Positions 13,539-50,414 of a stretch of DNA of 64,000 bases are shown here, piece by piece; within the stretch, counting starts at the first letter, position 1, and the number at the start of each line of letters is the position of its first letter. This stretch comes from Bacteroidota bacterium (GTDB lineage Bacteria; Bacteroidota; Ignavibacteria; Ignavibacteriales; Ignavibacteriaceae). The translations under genes were made by a program, and so were the position numbers. Where the stretch lies: contig JAKAGV010000019.1 in assembly GCA_021815405.1 (NCBI GenBank), positions 62,001 through 126,000 of the forward strand, written 5' to 3'. The notes beneath the pieces are model-generated. The model had not been told where the DNA came from and ran no database searches. It saw nothing but the letters and a program-made list of their open reading frames with translations.

Positions 13539-14543
13539 CTATTTTAACAAAACAAGCTTTTTGGTAAAAGTCAGTCCGTTTACATTTAGAGAATATAAAT
13601 AAATACCACTGGCTAGCTGTTCACCGCTCACCGGGAATTTAACTTCATAGCTTCCTGCTGGTTTTGTTTCATCAACTAAAGTCTCTACAACTCTTCCCAG
13701 CATGTCATAAATTCTAAGTGTTACATAACCTGGCTTAGCTATCTGATATTTAATTGTTGTAGTCGGATTAAACGGATTGGGATAGTTCTGCATCAGATTG
13801 TAAGTTAAAGGAGTTTCAATGTTTTGATTGGAAACTGAAGTAGGAATTGTTTGATACTTAATTCTGGCATTAGCAATTGCAGTTCGAAGATCCACTAAAG
13901 AAGTTCCAGCAGCAATTGCAAAGGCTACATCTAAAGTCTGCCCGGCAGGTATAGAAAACGGACCGCCGGATGTTACTTCAGAGATATCACCGGAGCCTGC
14001 TTTTGCCTTGCCTATACCGCTTGAGATCGCCTGCCATTTTTCAGTATTAGTAAAACCATCATAGATTCCCCAGTAACCGTCTGAGCCATCGTTCAAAATT
14101 CCCCAATAACCATAGTTGGTTGAAGAAATCAATGCAGTTGCAACTAGTGTATCAAAGCCTGCAGCATTATGGAATGCGTAACCAAAGTTGCCGTTATAAT
14201 CGTATTCTGTTGAGTCATTCTGTCCATCAACCAAATCCCAATCTGAAAATACTCCGGCATAGAAATTTGAAATTGTTCTGCTCGTATTGTTCGTAAAGCT
14301 GTACTTTAATATTATAAAATTATTATAAGGCACAGAGTTGAAAGAATAAGATTGAAGGCGCGTTGTAATACCGAGTTTATTCGCACCGGCTCCGTTATCA
14401 TTAAAGATCCCGATACCCTGCTCATCAGCAACACTGCCGGGAATATGAATCTTAAACGGTTGAACAACACTAAAGGAAGTATCTTCATAATTCTGATCTG
14501 CTCCGCGACCAGCATCTTCAATAGTTGATGAATCTGTCGATAA
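13539..14543 (-). CDS. C-terminal part of the frameshifted subtilase: ectodomain plus T9SS sorting domain
   Basis: In the frame used here the sequence reads on without a break from DSSTIEDAGRGADQNYEDTS through a beta-rich region to the C-terminal type IX sorting domain (NYPNPFNPTTTIKYQI, then LRIYDMLGRVVETLVDE and GIYLYSLNVNGLTFTKKLVL). It is the direct continuation of the subtilase at 14518-16404; the two frames overlap only between 14521 and 14543, and one base must be gained or lost there. Alone, this part has no signal peptide and a plausible ATG only at 14333. The sorting domain would send the intact protein through the type IX pore to the cell surface or medium. Confidence 0.85.
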   Translation of the reverse strand, partial: LSTDSSTIEDAGRGADQNYEDTSFSVVQPFKIHIPGSVADEQGIGIFNDNGAGANKLGITTRLQSYSFNSVPYNNFIILKYSFTNNTSRTISNFYAGVFSDWDLVDGQNDSTEYDYNGNFGYAFHNAAGFDTLVATALISSTNYGYWGILNDGSDGYWGIYDGFTNTEKWQAISSGIGKAKAGSGDISEVTSGGPFSIPAGQTLDVAFAIAAGTSLVDLRTAIANARIKYQTIPTSVSNQNIETPLTYNLMQNYPNPFNPTTTIKYQIAKPGYVTLRIYDMLGRVVETLVDETKPAGSYEVKFPVSGEQLASGIYLYSLNVNGLTFTKKLVLLK

Positions 14544-27503: not shown

Positions 27504-27567
27504 AAGGTATAAGGGAAACGATAAGCAATTATAAGGAATTTTTATTCCCTTATACCTCTATACCGTA
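27504..27567. repeat. Palindromic interspersed element, copy A
   Basis: A 12-bp perfect inverted repeat (GGTATAAGGGAA at 27506-27517, TTCCCTTATACC at 27545-27556, 27-base loop) forms the core of a 64-base element starting AAGGTATAA and ending CCTTATACCTCTATACC. The same two ends occur 3 kb away at 30485-30545, with a different middle. It lies just past the stop of the DUF4097 gene and may also serve as its terminator. Confidence 0.6.
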
Positions 27568-27580
27568 TTTCTTGGAAAAA

Positions 27581-28768
27581 TTACTTCTTCAATTTCCTGA
27601 TTTCGATACCAGCATTGTCCGATCTAATATTTATAACGCTTCCGCCTCCATTTAAGGTAATCGTAGCTTTTGCCGAACCGCCGTATTGCGAAGTCCCGGA
27701 TCGTTTAGCAGGGAAATCTGATTTGATAATTTCCTCAGACGATTCATCATATTGAACTCCATACGCAACAGCATTGATCGTAGCTTTTGCGGAAGGATTG
27801 ATAAAAAGCTTTACGCCCCCGTTCATAGATTCTAGGCTGCTCTTTCCGCTGCCGACGGACCTAAGCTCAAGATAAATATCACCGCTGTTAGTGCTTGCAT
27901 CAACTGTTCCATTAATGCTGTACAGTTTTATATTTCCGCCAAAAGTCCTGGCGCTTGTTGAACGGCTTGCACCGAGCAGTGTAATGTTGCCTCCGTTTGT
28001 TTTAAGCTCAGCGCTTCCGGAAACTTTTTTTACATTGATGCTGCCGCCCATCGTACTGATAATAGCATCTCCGCCAACATCTTCAGCAATTACATCACCG
28101 CCGTTCGTTTCAGCGTTAAGATCTCCGCCGATATTCTTTAGTGAAATTGTTCCTCCTTTAGTATTAATATTAGCCTTGTCGGAAATATTTTGAGTGTGAA
28201 TGTCTCCGCCCATTGTAGTAAGTGAAAGACTTCCGTTGACATTTCCGGTTGTTATATCTCCGCCATAAGTTGTGGCGTTGGCATTCCCGGTGATAGTTCC
28301 TAAGGTAATATCGCCGCCGTTTGTCAATGCTTTTAAATCGCCGCTTACTCCGGCAAGTGAAATGTCACCGCTTCTTGTGTCAATTCGTAAGCTTCCTTTA
28401 ATATTGTTAGAAAGACTTACATCTCCTCTATTTGTTTCCAGATTCAAGTTATATTCCGAAGGAACAGTAACTCTAACGTCCGACTTGCCATGAGAACCGC
28501 TCCCGTTAAATTGCACGGTAACATTATTACCGCTTTGGTAAATGTTAAGCAGGCTGCGTTGGCTTTCATCAACATCGCTTATGCTTACATTTACTTCATT
28601 TTTATTCCACGTATCGATTGAAATATCGCCAAGCATTAAATTAACCTTAAGCGTGCCGCCTTTGTTAACATTGAATGTTTTGGATATGTCTCCGCTGTCT
28701 GCTGCTTTGGCTAAAATAGCCAGCGACAAGATAATTACTAATCCTGCAGCTAATCTAATCGCTTTCAT
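27581..28768 (-). CDS. Secreted DUF4097 beta-solenoid protein
   Basis: 395 residues: signal peptide (IRLAAGLVIILSLAILAKAA) and a long run of about eleven ~20-residue repeats centred on T-x-G-G-[DNT]-[IV] (for example ALTNGGDITLGTITG, TTYGGDITTGNVN, LTTMGGDIHTQNIS), which predicts a right-handed beta-solenoid of the DUF4097/DUF4098 class. No catalytic site is seen. Its start overlaps the anti-sigma gene by 4 bases and it closes the sigma/anti-sigma operon, so it is probably a periplasmic or cell-surface output or sensor of that envelope-stress circuit; this is inference. Repeat DNA is GC-richer than its surroundings. Confidence 0.87.
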   Translation of the reverse strand: MKAIRLAAGLVIILSLAILAKAADSGDISKTFNVNKGGTLKVNLMLGDISIDTWNKNEVNVSISDVDESQRSLLNIYQSGNNVTVQFNGSGSHGKSDVRVTVPSEYNLNLETNRGDVSLSNNIKGSLRIDTRSGDISLAGVSGDLKALTNGGDITLGTITGNANATTYGGDITTGNVNGSLSLTTMGGDIHTQNISDKANINTKGGTISLKNIGGDLNAETNGGDVIAEDVGGDAIISTMGGSINVKKVSGSAELKTNGGNITLLGASRSTSARTFGGNIKLYSINGTVDASTNSGDIYLELRSVGSGKSSLESMNGGVKLFINPSAKATINAVAYGVQYDESSEEIIKSDFPAKRSGTSQYGGSAKATITLNGGGSVINIRSDNAGIEIRKLKK

Positions 28769-29742
28769 TGTATGTTTCCTTCCTTTAATAAGGATGCAGC
28801 ACGAATGCGTACATATTCGTTGTCATCGTTTTTTATTTGTTGATTTAAGATTTTAATTGTTTCCGGATCAATTCTTTTTTCATTCTGCATTGCAGTTGCA
28901 AGTCCATTTATAGCAGCTACACGAAGCCCCGAGTTTTTGTCATGCTGAAGTACAAAAAGCAAAGCATCGTTTATCTCGTTATCAAAAGGAAAATTGAGAA
29001 GAGCTTTTAATGCTTCCATGCGTACCGCGGGATTACCGTCATACTTAAGCGCAGTAAGTAAAGCGGATTTAACTTTCGGATTTAAATTTGATTTTCCAGG
29101 AATTTGTCCAGCTTGCTTATCAGAAATATTTGCAAGTGCATTAACAGTTTGAATTCTTGTCCCGGGATTCTTCTCGTTTACCAAAGCCTCAGCTAATATT
29201 TTCTGTATTGAAGGATCACTTAGTTTACCTTTCATTGTAACTTGCTTGACGGCATCAAATGAGAATTCTACCTCCCCGGTATTTAAAGAGTCGTTAAGAA
29301 ATCTAACATTGGAAATTGTGACAGCTCCGTTTTCAGCGCCGGACCTTTCACCTAATACATTTAGCTTAGAAGTACCAGTTGAAAAGATCAAATAACCTGC
29401 AAGAAATCCGATCACGAGCGAAAACGCTCCGGCTAATGCCGATCTTCTATAAATCCAGACATTTGTCCTGAGTGCTCTAAATGCTTTTTCCAGCAGAGAT
29501 TGTTTTGAAAGATCATAATTAAGCTTTCGCTTAAATTGAGCTCTTGCTTCATTTAAAAGATCATCATTAACAGCATCTTTTTTATTCTTATTTATAATTG
29601 AAAATAACTTGCTCTGTTTATCATACTCCGACTGGCATTCACTGCATTCAATTAAATGCTGATGAAGCTTCTTCATTTCCTCTTCATTTAGTTCATCAAG
29701 CAAAGCAAGCTGAATCATTTCCTTAAATATTTTATGATCCAT
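28765..29742 (-). CDS. Anti-sigma factor with zinc finger, one TM helix and HEAT repeats
   Basis: 325 residues. The N-terminus is a zinc-binding anti-sigma domain with H-x3-C-x2-C in HLIECSECQSEY; a membrane helix follows at about 110-132 (ALAGAFSLVIGFLAGYLIFS); after a beta-rich segment the C-terminal half contains HEAT-like repeats (LLTALKYDGNPAVRMEALKA, LLFVLQHDKNSGLRVAAING). The zinc domain would hold the sigma factor in the cytoplasm and the HEAT part would face the periplasm. Starts 9 bases after the sigma gene and overlaps the DUF4097 gene by 4. The HEAT sensor domain is unusual for anti-sigma factors. Confidence 0.86.
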   Translation of the reverse strand: MDHKIFKEMIQLALLDELNEEEMKKLHQHLIECSECQSEYDKQSKLFSIINKNKKDAVNDDLLNEARAQFKRKLNYDLSKQSLLEKAFRALRTNVWIYRRSALAGAFSLVIGFLAGYLIFSTGTSKLNVLGERSGAENGAVTISNVRFLNDSLNTGEVEFSFDAVKQVTMKGKLSDPSIQKILAEALVNEKNPGTRIQTVNALANISDKQAGQIPGKSNLNPKVKSALLTALKYDGNPAVRMEALKALLNFPFDNEINDALLFVLQHDKNSGLRVAAINGLATAMQNEKRIDPETIKILNQQIKNDDNEYVRIRAASLLKEGNIQ

Positions 29743-29751
29743 TACGATCTC

Positions 29752-30330
29752 CTAATCCAAAAAATCTTTTAAATTTTCTCTCATCTTTTGAGTTGCAAAG
29801 AAAAGATAATTTTTAACTGTTCCTTCCGTGCAATTCATAATCGTCGAAATTTCCTTAATCTTGTAACCTTTATAATGCTTAAGCGTAAAAACCATTCTCT
29901 GCTGCGGTGATAATTTTTCCAGTCCATTATCAATCATTTCGGAAATTTCCGAGCCAAGCGCTCTCTCATCAGAACTTTCTCCGTCTGCAATTGTATCGGC
30001 TAACGACCTCTGTTCGCCGTCCTCATCGCTAATTTCCTCATCCAAAGAACTGTACGCAAATTTCTTTTTCTGGGAACGATACGTCAGACATACGTTGGTC
30101 GTTACCCGGTAAAGCCAGGTGGAAAACTCGCTTCTGAACTCAAACTTCTTTATACCTTTATACACACGCAAAAAAACTTCCTGGTAGATATCTTTCGCAT
30201 CTTCGTTGTTGCCGATATACGAATAAGCGATTCCAAGAACATTTTTGTCGTACCTGTAAATGAGTTCTTCAAACGCTGTCTTATCTCCGTTCTGTGCCGC
30301 GATTATTAAATTGTTTTCTTCTTGTGTCAT
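29752..30330 (-). CDS. ECF sigma-70 family RNA polymerase sigma factor
   Basis: 192 residues with the two ECF domains: region 2 (YRYDKNVLGIAYSYIGNNED, then DIYQEVFLRVYKGIKKFEFR and STWLYRVTTNVCLTYR) and region 4 (LSPQQRMVFTLKHYKGYKIK, then EISTIMNCTEGTVKNYLFFA). Residue layout is of the RpoE/SigW-like group. It heads an operon with its zinc-finger anti-sigma factor and a DUF4097 protein, and the candidate promoter at 30353-30379 resembles an ECF-type site, which would make it self-activating. Confidence 0.94.
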   Translation of the reverse strand: MTQEENNLIIAAQNGDKTAFEELIYRYDKNVLGIAYSYIGNNEDAKDIYQEVFLRVYKGIKKFEFRSEFSTWLYRVTTNVCLTYRSQKKKFAYSSLDEEISDEDGEQRSLADTIADGESSDERALGSEISEMIDNGLEKLSPQQRMVFTLKHYKGYKIKEISTIMNCTEGTVKNYLFFATQKMRENLKDFLD

Positions 30331-30352: not shown

Positions 30353-30379
30353 TTAGACTTAACAACGCACAAAAGGTTG
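30353..30379 (-). promoter_or_regulatory. Candidate ECF-type autoregulatory promoter of the sigma operon
   Basis: On the minus strand CAACC (30379-30375) is separated by exactly 16 bases from GTCTAA (30358-30353). ECF promoters generally have an AAC-containing -35 and a GTC-type -10 at this spacing. The predicted transcript starts near 30345, giving a leader of about 15 bases with AGGATT before the ATG at 30330. Confidence 0.5.
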
Positions 30380-30484: not shown

Positions 30485-30545
30485 AGGTATAATGATATAT
30501 GGGTATAGGTGTTTTCCCCGTATACCTTATACCTCTATACCATAA
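30485..30545. repeat. Palindromic interspersed element, copy B
   Basis: Second copy of the element at 27504-27567: same left end (AAGGTATAA) and same 17-base right end (CCTTATACCTCTATACC), similar length, unrelated middle. GGTATAA/TTATACC ends are inverted to one another. Together the copies bracket the sigma/anti-sigma/DUF4097 operon. Confidence 0.55.
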
Positions 30546-33723: not shown

Positions 33724-34203
33724 ATGCAAGATACAGAAATAACAAAAGAAAATCTTCAATGGTACATAGAACAACCGATAGAAATGCAGATGGAGCTATT
33801 TAAGCATTATGTAAATATGGCAAAGATATTAGCCAATCAATTTTTTGAAGATGAAGTAAGGACAAAATCGGGAAAGAAATATTCAAGAGAAAAGCCGGAA
33901 GAAGGAAGATACAGCCGGTGGGGCAGCAATCCGGGGAGTATAAGAGTAGGAGAAGAGAAGGTAAAGGTAAGAGTGCCGAGAATATATGACAATCAGGAGG
34001 ATGAGACAATAGGATTAGAGAATTATAAGAAGTTAAGCCAAATACCATTACCGACTGAGGAGCTACTGAAGAAAATAATAATAGGTTTAAGCCAGCATGA
34101 TTATAAGCAGGTAGTTCAAATGGCATCAGAAAGTTTCGGACTGAGTCAGTCAACAGTAAGCCGGGCGTTTCTGGGGGCATTACAGATTACTGATTGCCGT
34201 TAG
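33724..34203 (+). pseudogene. IS256 (Mutator) family transposase, N-terminal remnant
   Basis: 159 codons of a ~400-residue DDE transposase. The zinc/DNA-binding front is recognisable: SRWGSNPGSIRVGEEKVKVR, VPRIYDNQEDE, and IGLSQHDYKQVVQMASESFG with GLSQSTVSRAF. The catalytic DDE core, which should start with a SRRF...VAIFLDG-like segment, is absent: after SRAF the reading is unrelated (LGALQITDCR) and stops. The gene was therefore deleted near 34170. Ribosome site AAAGGAATCTCT precedes the ATG. Not able to transpose. Confidence 0.85.
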
Positions 34204-34343: not shown

Positions 34344-34799
34344 TCATTCGAGTTGTGGAATTAGATTGTAGCCGAGATTAAGAGCCTGCTTCTTTAAGTT
34401 TTTAATTCGTTGTTCTTTGATTTTCTGTTCGTAATGTTGAATGCCGTATTCTACATACTCTACTCCTTTAGTCATAACATTATAATAGCAGACGACAATT
34501 TTTCTAGCAGCAGCTTTCATAGCAGTAAGCTTACCCTCCTTAAATTGTATTCGTCTGTAAAAAGCGCCAATAGCATATTCTTGCATATCGAACAGAGTTA
34601 CCCAATAGATTCCGGTCAATTCCATAGCAACTGTAGTAATGCCGTTTGCCCTAAAATATTCAACTGCGGAAATAAAAGATGAGGTAAAAGTAGAGAAAGA
34701 TTTAACTTCCTTATTGGGAAGAGCAATTAAGATTTCTCTGCTGCCGATATCAATACCTGCAGCATGTTCGTAGATAATTGTAAGTTTAGATTTAGACAT
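34344..34799 (-). pseudogene. IS110 family transposase with internal deletion
   Basis: 151 codons that join the N-terminal part of an IS110 transposase (HAAGIDIGSREILIALPNKE with the first catalytic Asp, VAMELTGIYWVTLFD) directly to its extreme C-terminus (YRRIQFKEGKLTAMKAAARK, then IKNLKKQALNLGYNLIPQ). The remaining catalytic residues and the tnp20 core, roughly 150-200 residues, are missing. The frame is intact across the join, so the deletion is in phase. Almost certainly inactive. Divergent from, and adjacent to, the IS256 remnant. Confidence 0.82.
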
Positions 34800-37502: not shown

Positions 37503-37685
37503 GAATATTTTTTCTATTTCAGCTCTTAATACAATATTCCGGTTGCCAATTAAATAAAACCGGAAGCGTTTGGTCATCTGAATTATCCTTCCTTCACTAA
37601 TTGCTTTTATCTGAGAATATAAAAATTATTTTTACCATTGAAATTAAAAAGTTATTTGACAACCCAAATTGAAAGGAGTACTGAC

Positions 37686-38093
37686 ATGAAAAAGCAAGTA
37701 GTAATGTTAGTCGCTGTTTTACTTCTTGGCGCAACTTCTATTTTTGCATCCGGGAAAAAATCCAATGATGGGGTAATAAATGATAAGGCAATAAAGAATT
37801 ACATGATAGGATTGAAATCCGACAATGTTGGACTTCGCTTTAGTTGCGCTTATTTACTAGGAGAGTACAAAATTGAAAAAGCCATTATTCCTTTAATGGC
37901 AATGCTTCATAACGAAAAGACGGAAGAGGGACGAATAGTAGCTGCTCTTTCGCTCATCAAAATCGGGACAGGTCAATCCATTTTTGCAGTTAAACAGGCG
38001 GCAACGTTTGATAAAAGCGAGCGTGTAAGAAATCTTTGCTCGTTATTTTATAACCATTACGCAGTTTCAAATAGCAGTGAATCCGAATTGTAA
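37686..38093 (+). CDS. Small secreted HEAT-repeat protein
   Basis: 135 residues from the ATG at 37686, chosen because AAGGAG lies 8 bases before it; an upstream TTG in frame is less likely. Signal peptide (VVMLVAVLLLGATSIFA), then an alpha-helical region with two HEAT-like units (LRFSCAYLLGEYKIEKAIIP and RIVAALSLIKIGTGQSIFAV). No catalytic motif. Similar in build to the periplasmic HEAT part of the anti-sigma factor at 28765-29742, though no link is implied. Ends before a strong terminator. Confidence 0.75.
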   Translation: MKKQVVMLVAVLLLGATSIFASGKKSNDGVINDKAIKNYMIGLKSDNVGLRFSCAYLLGEYKIEKAIIPLMAMLHNEKTEEGRIVAALSLIKIGTGQSIFAVKQAATFDKSERVRNLCSLFYNHYAVSNSSESEL

Positions 38094-47700: not shown

Positions 47701-48388
47701 AGATTTGAATACTTTTAATTTTACCCAGCGCACCGAAGAAGTTCATTCACTTAAGCAGCAGATAAAAAATCTTGGACCGATTAACCTGCTGGCATATTCT
47801 GAATTCGAAGAAGAGAAGCAGCGTCTTGAATTTCTGACAAAGCAGCGTAATGATTTGCTTGAATCCGAAAAAGACGTTGTTAAGACAATCGAAGAAATAA
47901 ATAATACTGCTCAAACGCAGTTTATGGAGACGTTTGAGAAAATACGGAACAACTTCACCGACATTTTTCGCGGGCTGTTTAATCCCGGCGATGAAGCCGA
48001 TCTAAAGCTTGAAGAGAATGTTGATCCGCTTGAAGGAAAGATTGAAATCATCGCCAAGCCGAAAGGCAAGCGTCCTACTTCAATCGAACTTCTCTCGGGA
48101 GGTGAAAAAACTTTAACGGCTATTGCGCTTTTATTTTCTATTTATCTTGTAAAGCCGAGCCCGTTCTGTATTCTAGATGAAGTAGACGCTCCTTTAGACG
48201 ATGCAAATATCGACAGGTATACAAAAATCATCCGCGATTTCAGTAACGATACTCAATTCATCGTCGTTACTCATAATAAAAGAACAATGGAGGCTGCCGA
48301 TACTCTTTACGGCGTAACAATGCAGGAAGAGGGCATATCGAAATTGGTTAGTGTAAGATTTAACGAGGACTTTAATTTTGTATCATGA
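44795..48388 (+). CDS. smc: Chromosome segregation protein SMC
   Basis: 1197 residues, full length. N-terminal head with Walker A GPNGCGKTN (about 31-39), long coiled coils, a hinge (about 505-670, beginning near SKGAKALLENSDWARG), and C-terminal head with LLSGGEKTLTAIALL and Walker B FCILDEVDAPLDDAN, H motif FIVVTHNKRTMEAA. Condenses and segregates the chromosome with ScpA/B (not in this window). The start is a TTG (44795), in line with MYL-type starts of orthologs, with weak ribosome site. Its last codons overlap the open frame of the next gene. Confidence 0.96.
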   Translation: MYLSRLEILGFKSFALKTQVNFNQGVTSIVGPNGCGKTNIADAIRWCLGEQRSAALRSDKMENVIFNGTTNKKPMGMAEVSLTIQNNKGILPTEYSEVTITRRIFRSGESEYLLNKNVCRLKDITNLFMDTGMGANAYSVIELKMVENILSSKTEDRRTMFEEAAGVNKYKLRRRLALRKLDEVKADLVRVNDIVAEVEKKVSSLERQAKRADRYNKISSTLRELELDLAERELSLFNIQKTEIKDNKEANFAKKISVESDLAKLEDEIKEIKQTLTEIESQLKSKRAEVTSQTEKIYNVQKHISVAEERKTSLVRNIERYKQELDELNYQLKEAEEMIADGTENIKDLSDRIEAKQEDKKNTSEKVEQFKIQLEEKRNSLKSQSEVLLEKFKEITNKENELSNIEKALEAKNLSISKLNERIQSLTNNIAKTVGYLSELEEEKSDTEKRIAEAESIYLQKQKEKENLEKELNSVKEKELEFKSVINGLKDKISLIQNLIDNLEGVSKGAKALLENSDWARGNKTLLAHIGNSSDEYRFAVEASLKNNLNDILIETIDDLKNGIDYLKSNEVGKASFYVFGFDDHRQKSFLEKIQAWSTNKKSKRIGKESGFVGWAFDLVHTDDQWKQFFKKLLDKTVVVDSLDTAFNLSHKYGEFNFATLTGDFVNHSGSVEAGSTPRPDDSLFGRKQFLEKLKDDFPKKEKELEGIRKEIESLEERINEIDLKVLSERGKLLVNDLANVEKQIAQFEFEKNKANDEIEKTRHEINDLASESNQLDNERQSLSSLLENQKAERAKAEENQKLLEDGFKKFEDEFNLVVAEQNRINLELERLLGEKKNTENSVKRAQDSIETIQKSISKREFDISSSSEELTSLENVIDENKLELDELTLGKQRLNLEEKEIDLHYREVRKQNSDKEEQQNSLRKEREIISEEIHNSDMRLSEINMKTANLQENIRENYSIAVELKSFEDLNTFNFTQRTEEVHSLKQQIKNLGPINLLAYSEFEEEKQRLEFLTKQRNDLLESEKDVVKTIEEINNTAQTQFMETFEKIRNNFTDIFRGLFNPGDEADLKLEENVDPLEGKIEIIAKPKGKRPTSIELLSGGEKTLTAIALLFSIYLVKPSPFCILDEVDAPLDDANIDRYTKIIRDFSNDTQFIVVTHNKRTMEAADTLYGVTMQEEGISKLVSVRFNEDFNFVS

Positions 48389-48434
48389 CTTAGCAGAATA
48401 TAGCGAGGTATTATTTAGAGGAGATAATTTAAGT

Positions 48435-50414
48435 TTGAATTTTCTGATTCAAGCTGTACTGATTACCGGCTTCTTCTTGATCTTCTGTACCAGCAGCTTT
48501 GCACAGTGGGTAAGTGATCCATCGATGAACACAAAACTAGTAACCGAGACGCACAATCCTATTAATTTATCTGCAGTTAGTGATTTAAACGGTGGCTCGT
48601 TTGTATTTTGGGAGGATAATAAGTACGGATATCAAAGTGAAGTGTTTTATGTTCACCTGGATGCAAACGGAAAAGTAAGTTTTAGAGCCGATGGGAAAAG
48701 AGTGTCCTCTTTAAGCGGACCTGAGGATAATCCGGTATGTGCAACTGCTTCACCAAATTCTGCAGTAGTCATCTGGAATGATCTTTCTTATTCAAATTCG
48801 GGGAGTTTGTTCGCTCAGCGTGTCTATGCTAACGGAGAAGAAGCGTGGGGCGATAAAGGATTGCAGATTTCAAAATCCGAAGACGCAGTAAGCGAATACT
48901 CGGTTGGAGTTGATAAATCTGACAATACATTTATTTCATATATAGCTAAGGAACCGGAGCTTAACGGAGATTTTAAGGTTGAAGTACAAAAAGTTTCAAG
49001 CGATGGTAAGATGCTTTTTAATCAAAATGAAAAATTAGTATTCGAATCTCATGACAGAAAAATGATGACCACTACAGTGCCGGACGACAGCGGCGGAGTC
49101 TTTGTTTTCTGGATCGAAATGCTAAACGGAAGAAGCATGATTTTCGGACAGCATATCAACAGCAGTGGTAAAAAAGTCTGGGGAATTGATGATGCTGAAC
49201 TCCATGAAAAGCCTTTAGATATTTCAAGTACCGCTCACAATGTAATCTCCTATGTTGCAAAGAAGGCATTCAATAACTCAGTTTATATTGCCTGGCAGAC
49301 GCAAACTAAAAGTAAAGACATTTATCACCAACTAATTAATTACAGAGGCAGAATTCAATGGAAGCGTGGTGGTAAATTAGCTACTCCACTTAGAGGCGAT
49401 CAACTTGATCCGCAGGCTGTCTGTACTGACTCTTCAATAATTCTAAGCTGGACTAATGAGTACAGAAATGATAAAGATATTTATATTGAAAGATATGATG
49501 AAAAAGGAAATCCTCTCTGGAACAGATTGGGTGAGCCGGTAATAAAGATGCATGGAGATCAATTTGGTCAAAGGATGATTCCCGATGGGAAAAACGGAGT
49601 TATCATAGCTTGGATTGACCGACGTATTGATTCGTTACTGGCAAATATCTACGTCCAACGGATTAACAGTGAAGGGAAAGAATTGTGGAATCAGTATGGC
49701 GTAATTGCAGCTTCAGAAAAAAATACATTAAAGAGTTATCTCTCCGTTGTTCCAGATGGAAATGATGGTGTTATTACGATTTTTAAAAATTCTACAAAGA
49801 CAAAAAGTGAAATCTTCGGACAGAAAATCTTCAGCACGGGTACTTACTCTTCGCAGATTGTTAGTTTAAGCACTGCGCTGACAGGCGACAGTATAAAGAT
49901 AGCTTGGATTGCTGCTAACGAAAGAGGTTCGACAGATTATAGTATTGAAAGAGCGTTAAAAAGTGCAGACGGAGGCGTTGACTGGGATACAGTCGGTTCT
50001 GTTCATTCTCAAGGAAAAGGAATGGAAGTTCATTATGAGTTTTATGATAAACCGGATACAAGCGGAACTTTGTATTATAGAGTAGTTCAAACTAATGCTT
50101 CCGGTGATTTTCAGAATTCGGAAATAAGTAGTATTAATTATTTTGGTGCCGCTTCCGGCGTGGTTGTTGCGCAGAATTTTCCAAATCCTTTTACAGATTC
50201 GACTGTCATAAGTTTTTATCTTCCGGATCCGGAGCCAGTTACAATAGAATTTTTTGATGAGCATGTCGTTAAGATTAGTGAGATTGATAATTCATTTCCT
50301 GCAGGAGAAAATAAAATTACGTTTTATGCTAAGGGATTAAAGCCTGGAATTTATTTTTATAGGCTGAAAGCAGATGACTTCGTTGATGTTAAGAAGATGA
50401 TTATTACAAACTAA
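48435..50414 (+). CDS. Secreted protein with type IX (Por) sorting domain
   Basis: About 660 residues from the TTG at 48435, chosen because AGAGGAGAT lies 9 bases before it and it places the signal peptide (LNFLIQAVLITGFFLIFCTS, then SFAQW) at the N-terminus; the frame is open 57 bases further, into the smc end. The body has repeating beta-propeller-like units (GGSFVFWEDNKYGYQ, GGVFVFWIEMLNGR, GVIIAWIDRRIDS). The C-terminus is a T9SS sorting domain: VAQNFPNPFTDSTVISFYLP, then GLKPGIYFYRLKADDFVDVK. Exported across the outer membrane. Function unknown. Confidence 0.85.
   Translation: MNFLIQAVLITGFFLIFCTSSFAQWVSDPSMNTKLVTETHNPINLSAVSDLNGGSFVFWEDNKYGYQSEVFYVHLDANGKVSFRADGKRVSSLSGPEDNPVCATASPNSAVVIWNDLSYSNSGSLFAQRVYANGEEAWGDKGLQISKSEDAVSEYSVGVDKSDNTFISYIAKEPELNGDFKVEVQKVSSDGKMLFNQNEKLVFESHDRKMMTTTVPDDSGGVFVFWIEMLNGRSMIFGQHINSSGKKVWGIDDAELHEKPLDISSTAHNVISYVAKKAFNNSVYIAWQTQTKSKDIYHQLINYRGRIQWKRGGKLATPLRGDQLDPQAVCTDSSIILSWTNEYRNDKDIYIERYDEKGNPLWNRLGEPVIKMHGDQFGQRMIPDGKNGVIIAWIDRRIDSLLANIYVQRINSEGKELWNQYGVIAASEKNTLKSYLSVVPDGNDGVITIFKNSTKTKSEIFGQKIFSTGTYSSQIVSLSTALTGDSIKIAWIAANERGSTDYSIERALKSADGGVDWDTVGSVHSQGKGMEVHYEFYDKPDTSGTLYYRVVQTNASGDFQNSEISSINYFGAASGVVVAQNFPNPFTDSTVISFYLPDPEPVTIEFFDEHVVKISEIDNSFPAGENKITFYAKGLKPGIYFYRLKADDFVDVKKMIITN

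Follow-up and report, generated by a model that had tools for sequence, protein, structure and literature searches.

A sigma factor operon encoding a HEAT-repeat anti-sigma factor and a Toastrack protein: a candidate envelope-response module of Ignavibacteria

What might an anti-sigma factor that carries HEAT repeats respond to, and what role would a secreted solenoid protein have in the same operon? These questions are raised by three genes on the minus strand, at positions 30330-27581, of a 64,000-nucleotide stretch of DNA (the window) from a Bacteroidota bacterium of the Ignavibacteriaceae (GenBank assembly GCA_021815405.1, contig JAKAGV010000019.1, positions 62,001 to 126,000). The genes encode an extracytoplasmic function (ECF) sigma factor, a membrane anti-sigma factor and a DUF4097, or Toastrack, protein. 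A prediction made from the nucleotide sequence alone (the original prediction) had described them as one operon and suggested the solenoid as ligand or output of the HEAT sensor. Gene positions and Pfam domains confirm the operon. Gene content, order, conservation, predicted topology, the promoter-like motif and its placement before gene families are computed directly, and together they make it likely that the trio is an autoregulated envelope-response module with a small secreted or envelope regulon. The component families are known, but the combination of sigma factor, HEAT anti-sigma factor and Toastrack protein has not been found described.

Conservation and architecture of the trio

A search with the anti-sigma protein (P0002) gave matches in 38 of 59 related genomes, its own included (E <= 0.001), and a search with an alignment of this family gave matches in 58 of 395 genomes of the phylum (E <= 1e-10). 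A pattern scan of named genomes gave 64 loci; their records mostly read Ignavibacteria, Ignavibacteriales, Melioribacteraceae or unspecified Bacteroidetes, and one reads Neomarinimicrobiota. The trio is known within the window's order and in further classes of the same phylum, with one Neomarinimicrobiota record, and the records that hold it are mostly metagenome-assembled. The 64 match rows of the phylum search comprised 30 with loci, 21 more reached through 20 regions and 13 that were left out; 11 rows of the related-genome search were without loci, two of which (G047 and G055) were examined separately. Loci whose HEAT proteins agree in their final 100 residues were treated as duplicates, which left 111 distinct loci, the window's own included. 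All were chosen via the HEAT protein and the neighbour rates are therefore conditional on the HEAT gene. Complete trios are present in 88 of the 111 loci and form the basis of the distance and hydropathy counts given below.

A sigma factor gene lies upstream on the same strand, within 700 bases, in all 106 loci with room for one, which points indirectly to its product as the predicted cognate sigma factor of the anti-sigma factor. The start of a DUF4097 gene lies within 200 bases downstream of the HEAT gene in 106 of the 109 loci with room, with an overlap of 4 bases (-4) in 46. Co-occurrence of the three families, the test that had been named for the original prediction, is thus strongly borne out. 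The exceptions are three loci (L135, L137 and L139) in which sigma factor and HEAT genes are kept and DUF4097 is not next door; in L135 and L137 the gene after the HEAT gene is one that we take to be TetR-like. A chance neighbourhood of unrelated genes has a negligible probability, since the order is conserved in more than 100 distinct loci and nothing was found in its favour; it was rejected on that ground. A reduced form of the system is present in a remote genome of this phylum (L138:4023-6385): a gene with zf-HC2 and HEAT repeats precedes two short Toastrack-like genes, of which the first, at 18.7 bits to DUF4097, falls short of the cut-off (22.9).

The first gene of the window operon (29752..30330, minus strand, as are all features of the operon) encodes a sigma factor of 192 residues whose sole domains are sigma2 and sigma4 (Pfam Sigma70_r2, 1.2e-17; Sigma70_r4_2, 5.2e-16) and which scores above the cut-off of the NCBIfam sigma70-ECF superfamily model, placing it among the ECF sigma factors. 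It is separated by 9 bases from the anti-sigma gene (28765..29742), which overlaps the DUF4097 gene by 4 bases (28765-28768), so that the overlap noted originally is real.

The anti-sigma factor has 325 residues and, according to Pfam and a predicted model, consists of a zf-HC2-type anti-sigma domain, one transmembrane (TM) segment, a three-strand module and four HEAT repeats. The Pfam matches are to zf-HC2 (3.9e-5, residues 5-37; 24.1 bits against a cut-off of 22.2) and HEAT_2 (9.6e-15). The anti-sigma domain, assigned to residues 1-80 (29503..29742) by Pfam and the model, contains the zinc-ligand motif Hx3Cx2C as H29-x3-C33-x2-C36. In an alignment of 52 sequences, which included 51 of 57 candidate homologues, 32 have the full set of ligands and the other 20 have different residues at all three positions. 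A mixture of ligand-bearing and ligand-less members fits what has been published for class I anti-sigma domains (ASDI), in which zinc and non-zinc members are mixed within one group (PMC7406223, in excerpt). Hydropathy places the TM segment at about residues 100-120 (29383..29445); it is the single strongly hydrophobic segment of the protein, the best 19-residue window beginning at residue 102, and exactly one TM-like segment is present in the anti-sigma factors of 86 of the 88 complete trios. The HEAT part is predicted to lie outside the cytoplasm, since the protein would cross the membrane once with its N-terminal domain on the cytoplasmic side. The zf-HC2 domain, the single TM segment and the HEAT_2 match agree with the arrangement first proposed, of a zinc-finger cytoplasmic part with HEAT repeats predicted across the membrane.

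The structure model of the anti-sigma factor, built from the 52-row alignment, has a mean predicted local distance difference test score (pLDDT) of 86 and shows N-terminal helices, a long helix at 83-120 across the TM segment and strands at 144-173. The last form a conserved three-strand module between TM segment and HEAT domain (29224..29313), in which N145 is invariant in a 29-row alignment and F162 nearly invariant in the 52-row alignment. The HEAT domain (residues 177-324; 28771..29214), supported by Pfam HEAT_2, the model and PDB comparison, is modelled as eight helices making four HEAT pairs. Comparison with the PDB returned ARM/HEAT and designed helical repeat proteins at Z 13-15; no structural relative is named, because helical repeats commonly reach such scores.

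The third gene (27581..28768) encodes a Toastrack protein of 395 residues, assigned by Pfam DUF4097 (PF13349, 2.2e-15; 57.1 bits against a cut-off of 22.9). A signal peptide is predicted at residues 1-22 (28703..28768), where a hydrophobic N-terminus is followed by ...AKA|AD, and a hydrophobic N-terminal segment is present in 87 of the 88 DUF4097 proteins. Eleven repeats of the form T-x-G-G-[DN]-I had been claimed for the solenoid. A motif scan of the solenoid region (27812..28435) does find 11 repeats with a period of 18, in a loose form (T-x-x-G-x-[IV], or more narrowly T-x-[GSR]-G-x-[IV], with 18-19 residue spacing from residue 112), whereas the strict form occurs only 5 times (mean of 0.012 in 2000 shuffles); the number stood and the strict consensus did not. 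Compared with most displayed rows of a 47-row alignment, which included 46 of 59 candidate homologues, the window protein has one additional rung of 18 residues. The structure model is a beta-solenoid (mean pLDDT 90.6). Its top Foldseek matches were 3pet, 3ljy, 4opw and 3lyc, with the Toastrack-type entries (3pet, 3ljy and 4opw) first; VIA-align gave Z 16.3 for 4qrk (152 residues aligned, 2.6 Å) and Z 14.7 for 4opw (218 aligned, 3.5 Å), although other beta-solenoids reach such scores too by the same method (8c50, Z 19.1; 3p4g, Z 17.7). A PDB sequence search with the DUF4097 protein gave no match at E 0.1.

A putative promoter and its placement across genomes

An alignment of nine upstream regions from the same genus identified a predicted ECF promoter at 30353..30379, comprising a -35-like CAACCTT (30379-30373), a 14-base spacer and a -10-like GTCTAA (30358-30353), 22 bases ahead of the start codon of the sigma factor gene. 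All nine sigma factor genes share these elements with a spacer of 14-15 bases, about 22 bases before the start. Among 104 sigma upstream regions, CAACCTT-N12..17-GTCTAA is found in 47 (shuffled mean 0, 30 shuffles) and CAACC-N14..18-GTCTA in 56 (shuffled mean 0.02, 50 shuffles), with a median distance to the start of 23 bases. An AAC in the -35 element with a short spacer is the form of an ECF promoter, and ECF sigma factors are usually autoregulated. The conserved motif upstream of the sigma factor gene is thus a putative autoregulated promoter, presumably recognised by the sigma factor of the window.

In the window's genome CAACCTT-N13..16-GTCTAA occurs at three sites: at the operon, where it is the sole such motif in the window; 21 bases before a gene, away from the operon, for an 882-residue DUF5916/CBM9 protein, one of three DUF5916 genes in this genome and the only one with the motif; and ahead of a MoxR operon. 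The last is a MoxR-DUF58-VWA/BatA operon (G000 C5, L211:223-5249) with the motif 82 bases ahead of it. Across the 59 genomes there are 83 sites, which were classed by the longest open reading frame (ORF) starting within 200 bases downstream and by position, a site within 1 kb upstream of a HEAT gene being counted as operon: 31 are at the operon, 17 at DUF5916 genes, 11 at MoxR genes and 5 at Toastrack genes elsewhere, with 19 unassigned. The motif is present at the operon in 31 of the 38 genomes with a HEAT anti-sigma gene. Of the Toastrack targets elsewhere, two have Pfam DUF4097 (L172, L200), two have DUF2807 (L205, L210) and one (L206) was assigned by clustering only.

The 15 genomes with DUF5916 sites all belong to the 38 that have a HEAT anti-sigma gene, and the 21 that lack this gene have no such site (Fisher p 4.5e-4, not corrected for relatedness), although DUF5916 matches themselves occur in 57 of the 59. 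The trio is taken to be present in these genomes from the HEAT gene and the locus statistics; the full trio was seen for most, and the locus of G043 was left out. Pfam confirmed all six of the 17 DUF5916 targets that were scanned and the remaining 11 were assigned by phmmer clustering. DUF5916 is also linked to the operon by position. When a profile built from the DUF5916 targets was applied to the 75 loci with room for a gene after DUF4097, that gene was DUF5916 in 21, a second DUF4097 in 27 and another gene in 27; a DUF5916 gene is divergent from the operon in L008 and L009 (L063 being the named copy of L009). That DUF5916 is linked either through the operon or through the motif independently suggests a functional connection, and it is the strongest new result of this work. 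The original prediction had included neither motif nor regulon, nor DUF5916 as a partner.

Several findings weigh against this reading of the trio and its regulon. The reversed pattern gives 75 raw sites (summed control columns) in the 59 genomes against 83 for the motif, and 19 of the latter are unassigned to any gene class. About half of the loci show no motif upstream, among them nearly all those outside the window's order, where the promoter may have diverged. In the stretches scanned of the window's own genome, no AAC[CT]T-N14..18-GTCTA was found for a second DUF4097 gene or for two of the three DUF5916 genes. Three genomes have motif sites without a detectable HEAT anti-sigma gene: G005 (only 79% complete) and G006 at MoxR, and G058 at a DUF4097 gene. 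Raw counts were rejected as evidence, given how common the reversed pattern is (with a relaxed pattern in the window's own genome it gave 37 sites against 9), and the evidence lies instead in where the sites are placed. A permuted pattern of equal composition gave 14 sites, every one inside a stop-to-stop frame exceeding 150 codons, and the genes that follow have no match among those that follow real sites. Of 62 distinct real sites, 13 lie inside such frames, some of which are no more than an upstream extension of the target gene itself; the downstream-ORF and frame analyses left out 18 of the 83 sites, all at operons.

Of the 11 genomes with MoxR sites, most of which belong to the window's genus, 9 have a HEAT gene, and MoxR/Bat is kept as an uncertain target because of G005 and G006. 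Together with the DUF4097 site of G058, these two genomes would be explained if the motif were read by another ECF sigma factor, the trio being merely one target among others. We regard this as unlikely, since the HEAT anti-sigma gene is present in every one of the 15 genomes with a DUF5916 site, and since autoregulation is the general habit of ECF sigma factors.

A weaker motif, AACCTT-N14-GTCTA, was also observed in the window's genome (L232, G000 C17:90747-90771), 35 bases before the gene of a 252-residue secreted-looking protein, presumably BON-domain-like, which was the one possible target to emerge from the relaxed-pattern sites.

Models of regulation and related systems

In the module proposed here as likely, the anti-sigma factor would keep the ECF sigma factor tethered to the membrane, and its own periplasm-facing HEAT domain would read some state of the envelope. 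A signal would inactivate the anti-sigma factor, probably by regulated proteolysis as assumed by analogy with RpoE (PMC8103513, in excerpt), and the freed sigma factor would recognise CAACCTT-N13..16-GTCTAA and transcribe its own operon, the secreted Toastrack solenoid included. Further targets would be DUF5916/CBM9 secreted proteins, other Toastrack proteins and possibly the MoxR/Bat operon, all with a presumed role in the envelope, and the Toastrack protein might feed back on the HEAT domain as RseB does on RseA.

Of the two roles first suggested for the solenoid, that of output is supported. Toastrack proteins are probably outputs of the sigma factor, because an ECF-like motif lies upstream of the sigma factor gene in their operon and separate DUF4097 and DUF2807 genes share it. 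The Toastrack protein could be purely an output, with the HEAT domain sensing, for example, unassembled outer-membrane or DUF5916 peptides via regulated proteolysis. This comes close to being probable in our estimation: separate Toastrack and DUF5916 genes carry the motif of the operon, as outputs would. The near-constancy of Toastrack as third gene (106 of 109, against 21 of 75 for DUF5916 as gene 4) hints at a closer role.

Such a role could be an RseB-like feedback, in which the Toastrack protein binds to the HEAT domain and protects the anti-sigma factor from proteolysis until a damaged envelope draws the solenoid away, freeing the sigma factor to make more. HEAT and solenoid folds are both typical protein-binding scaffolds. 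Across the 88 trios the partial distance correlation with DUF4097 is 0.41 for the HEAT part, against 0.13 for the anti-sigma domain and 0.08 for the sigma factor, with no control for phylogeny; it is suggestive of a HEAT-Toastrack relation, although it may merely mirror shared phylogeny. The set of sigma factor, single-TM anti-sigma factor and secreted protein resembles RpoE-RseA-RseB (PMC8103513, in excerpt), but L135, L137 and L139 retain sigma factor and HEAT genes with DUF4097 not adjoining, and we hold the feedback as an attractive but tentative possibility. An extended form, in which the HEAT receptor gauges how much of its own secreted Toastrack protein is free, envelope demand lowers this amount and frees the sigma factor for a refill, and DUF5916 is the outer-membrane-side partner in one machine with Toastrack, is rather doubtful. 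We infer that DUF5916 may be an outer-membrane barrel.

The likeness of the preferred autoregulated module to RpoE-RseA-RseB of E. coli lies in the joint encoding of an ECF sigma factor with a membrane anti-sigma factor and a periplasmic third protein (PMC8103513, in excerpt), the promoter being autoregulated in E. coli and putatively so here. It differs in having HEAT repeats as the periplasmic part of the anti-sigma factor, DUF4097 as the third protein and a DUF5916/Toastrack regulon. Membership of the third protein in RseB/MucB was rejected, as it has no MucB/RseB Pfam domain and DUF4097 alone is above cut-off. The anti-sigma factor is like ASDI members in its N-terminal domain, with Hx3Cx2C in many of them, and in that these are often membrane bound; a HEAT sensor domain, present here, is not mentioned in the excerpts of PMC7406223.

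Toastrack proteins have been described as DUF4097 beta-helices of PSP/Lia-like, regulator-linked operons, including 'an operonically linked sigma factor', and were inferred to be intracellular with PspC, LiaI-LiaF or two-component partners (PMC11237479, in excerpt). The present operon differs in its predicted signal peptide, its HEAT anti-sigma partner and the lack of PspC or LiaF among its three proteins, and the N-terminal hydrophobic segment of nearly all trio DUF4097 proteins departs from the intracellular localisation proposed in those excerpts. A Pfam scan of the three proteins detected no PspA, PspC or LiaI-LiaF domain. The DUF4097 region is shared with LiaG (NCBIfam NF049997, E 3.1e-12), but at 46.3 bits against a cut-off of 285 the protein is rejected as a LiaG by that model.

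To our knowledge, DUF4097/Toastrack and DUF5916 are families without established function. Searches of the open-licence PMC literature found no joint description of DUF4097, anti-sigma factor and HEAT repeat, although an ECF classification may list the neighbourhood; no mention of DUF5916; and nothing on pairing of ECF sigma and anti-sigma factors in Ignavibacteria; broader searches on anti-sigma factors and HEAT repeats listed nothing relevant either. All four anti-sigma/HEAT terms searched are present in PMC3174227, but, in the excerpts seen, they are scattered over different table rows and references. Through operon and motif, a conserved sigma/anti-sigma pair is linked to both Toastrack and DUF5916, which offers a concrete and testable regulon: the poorly understood DUF4097 family would gain a testable regulatory role, HEAT would be an unusual type of sensor domain for an anti-sigma factor, and the motif allows targets to be read from sequence in Ignavibacteria-type genomes.

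Other features of the window

The window contains two exact copies of the 16-mer CTTATACCTCTATACC, at 27549-27564 and 30526-30541, flanking the operon. Genome-wide the 16-mer has three exact copies, or 9 places when one mismatch is counted, and it may be a small dispersed repeat. A few kilobases from the operon, short ORFs at 33724-34203 (plus strand) and 34344-34799 (minus strand) look like truncated transposases, which we take to be IS256-like and IS110-like respectively. An ORF at 37638-38093 (plus strand), also away from the operon, encodes 151 residues and appears by eye to be a small secreted HEAT-repeat protein. The products of ORFs at 13539-14333 (minus strand) and 48378-50414 (plus strand) end in a C-terminal tail of the type NPF...GIY.Y....KK, which we presume to resemble type IX secretion sorting domains.

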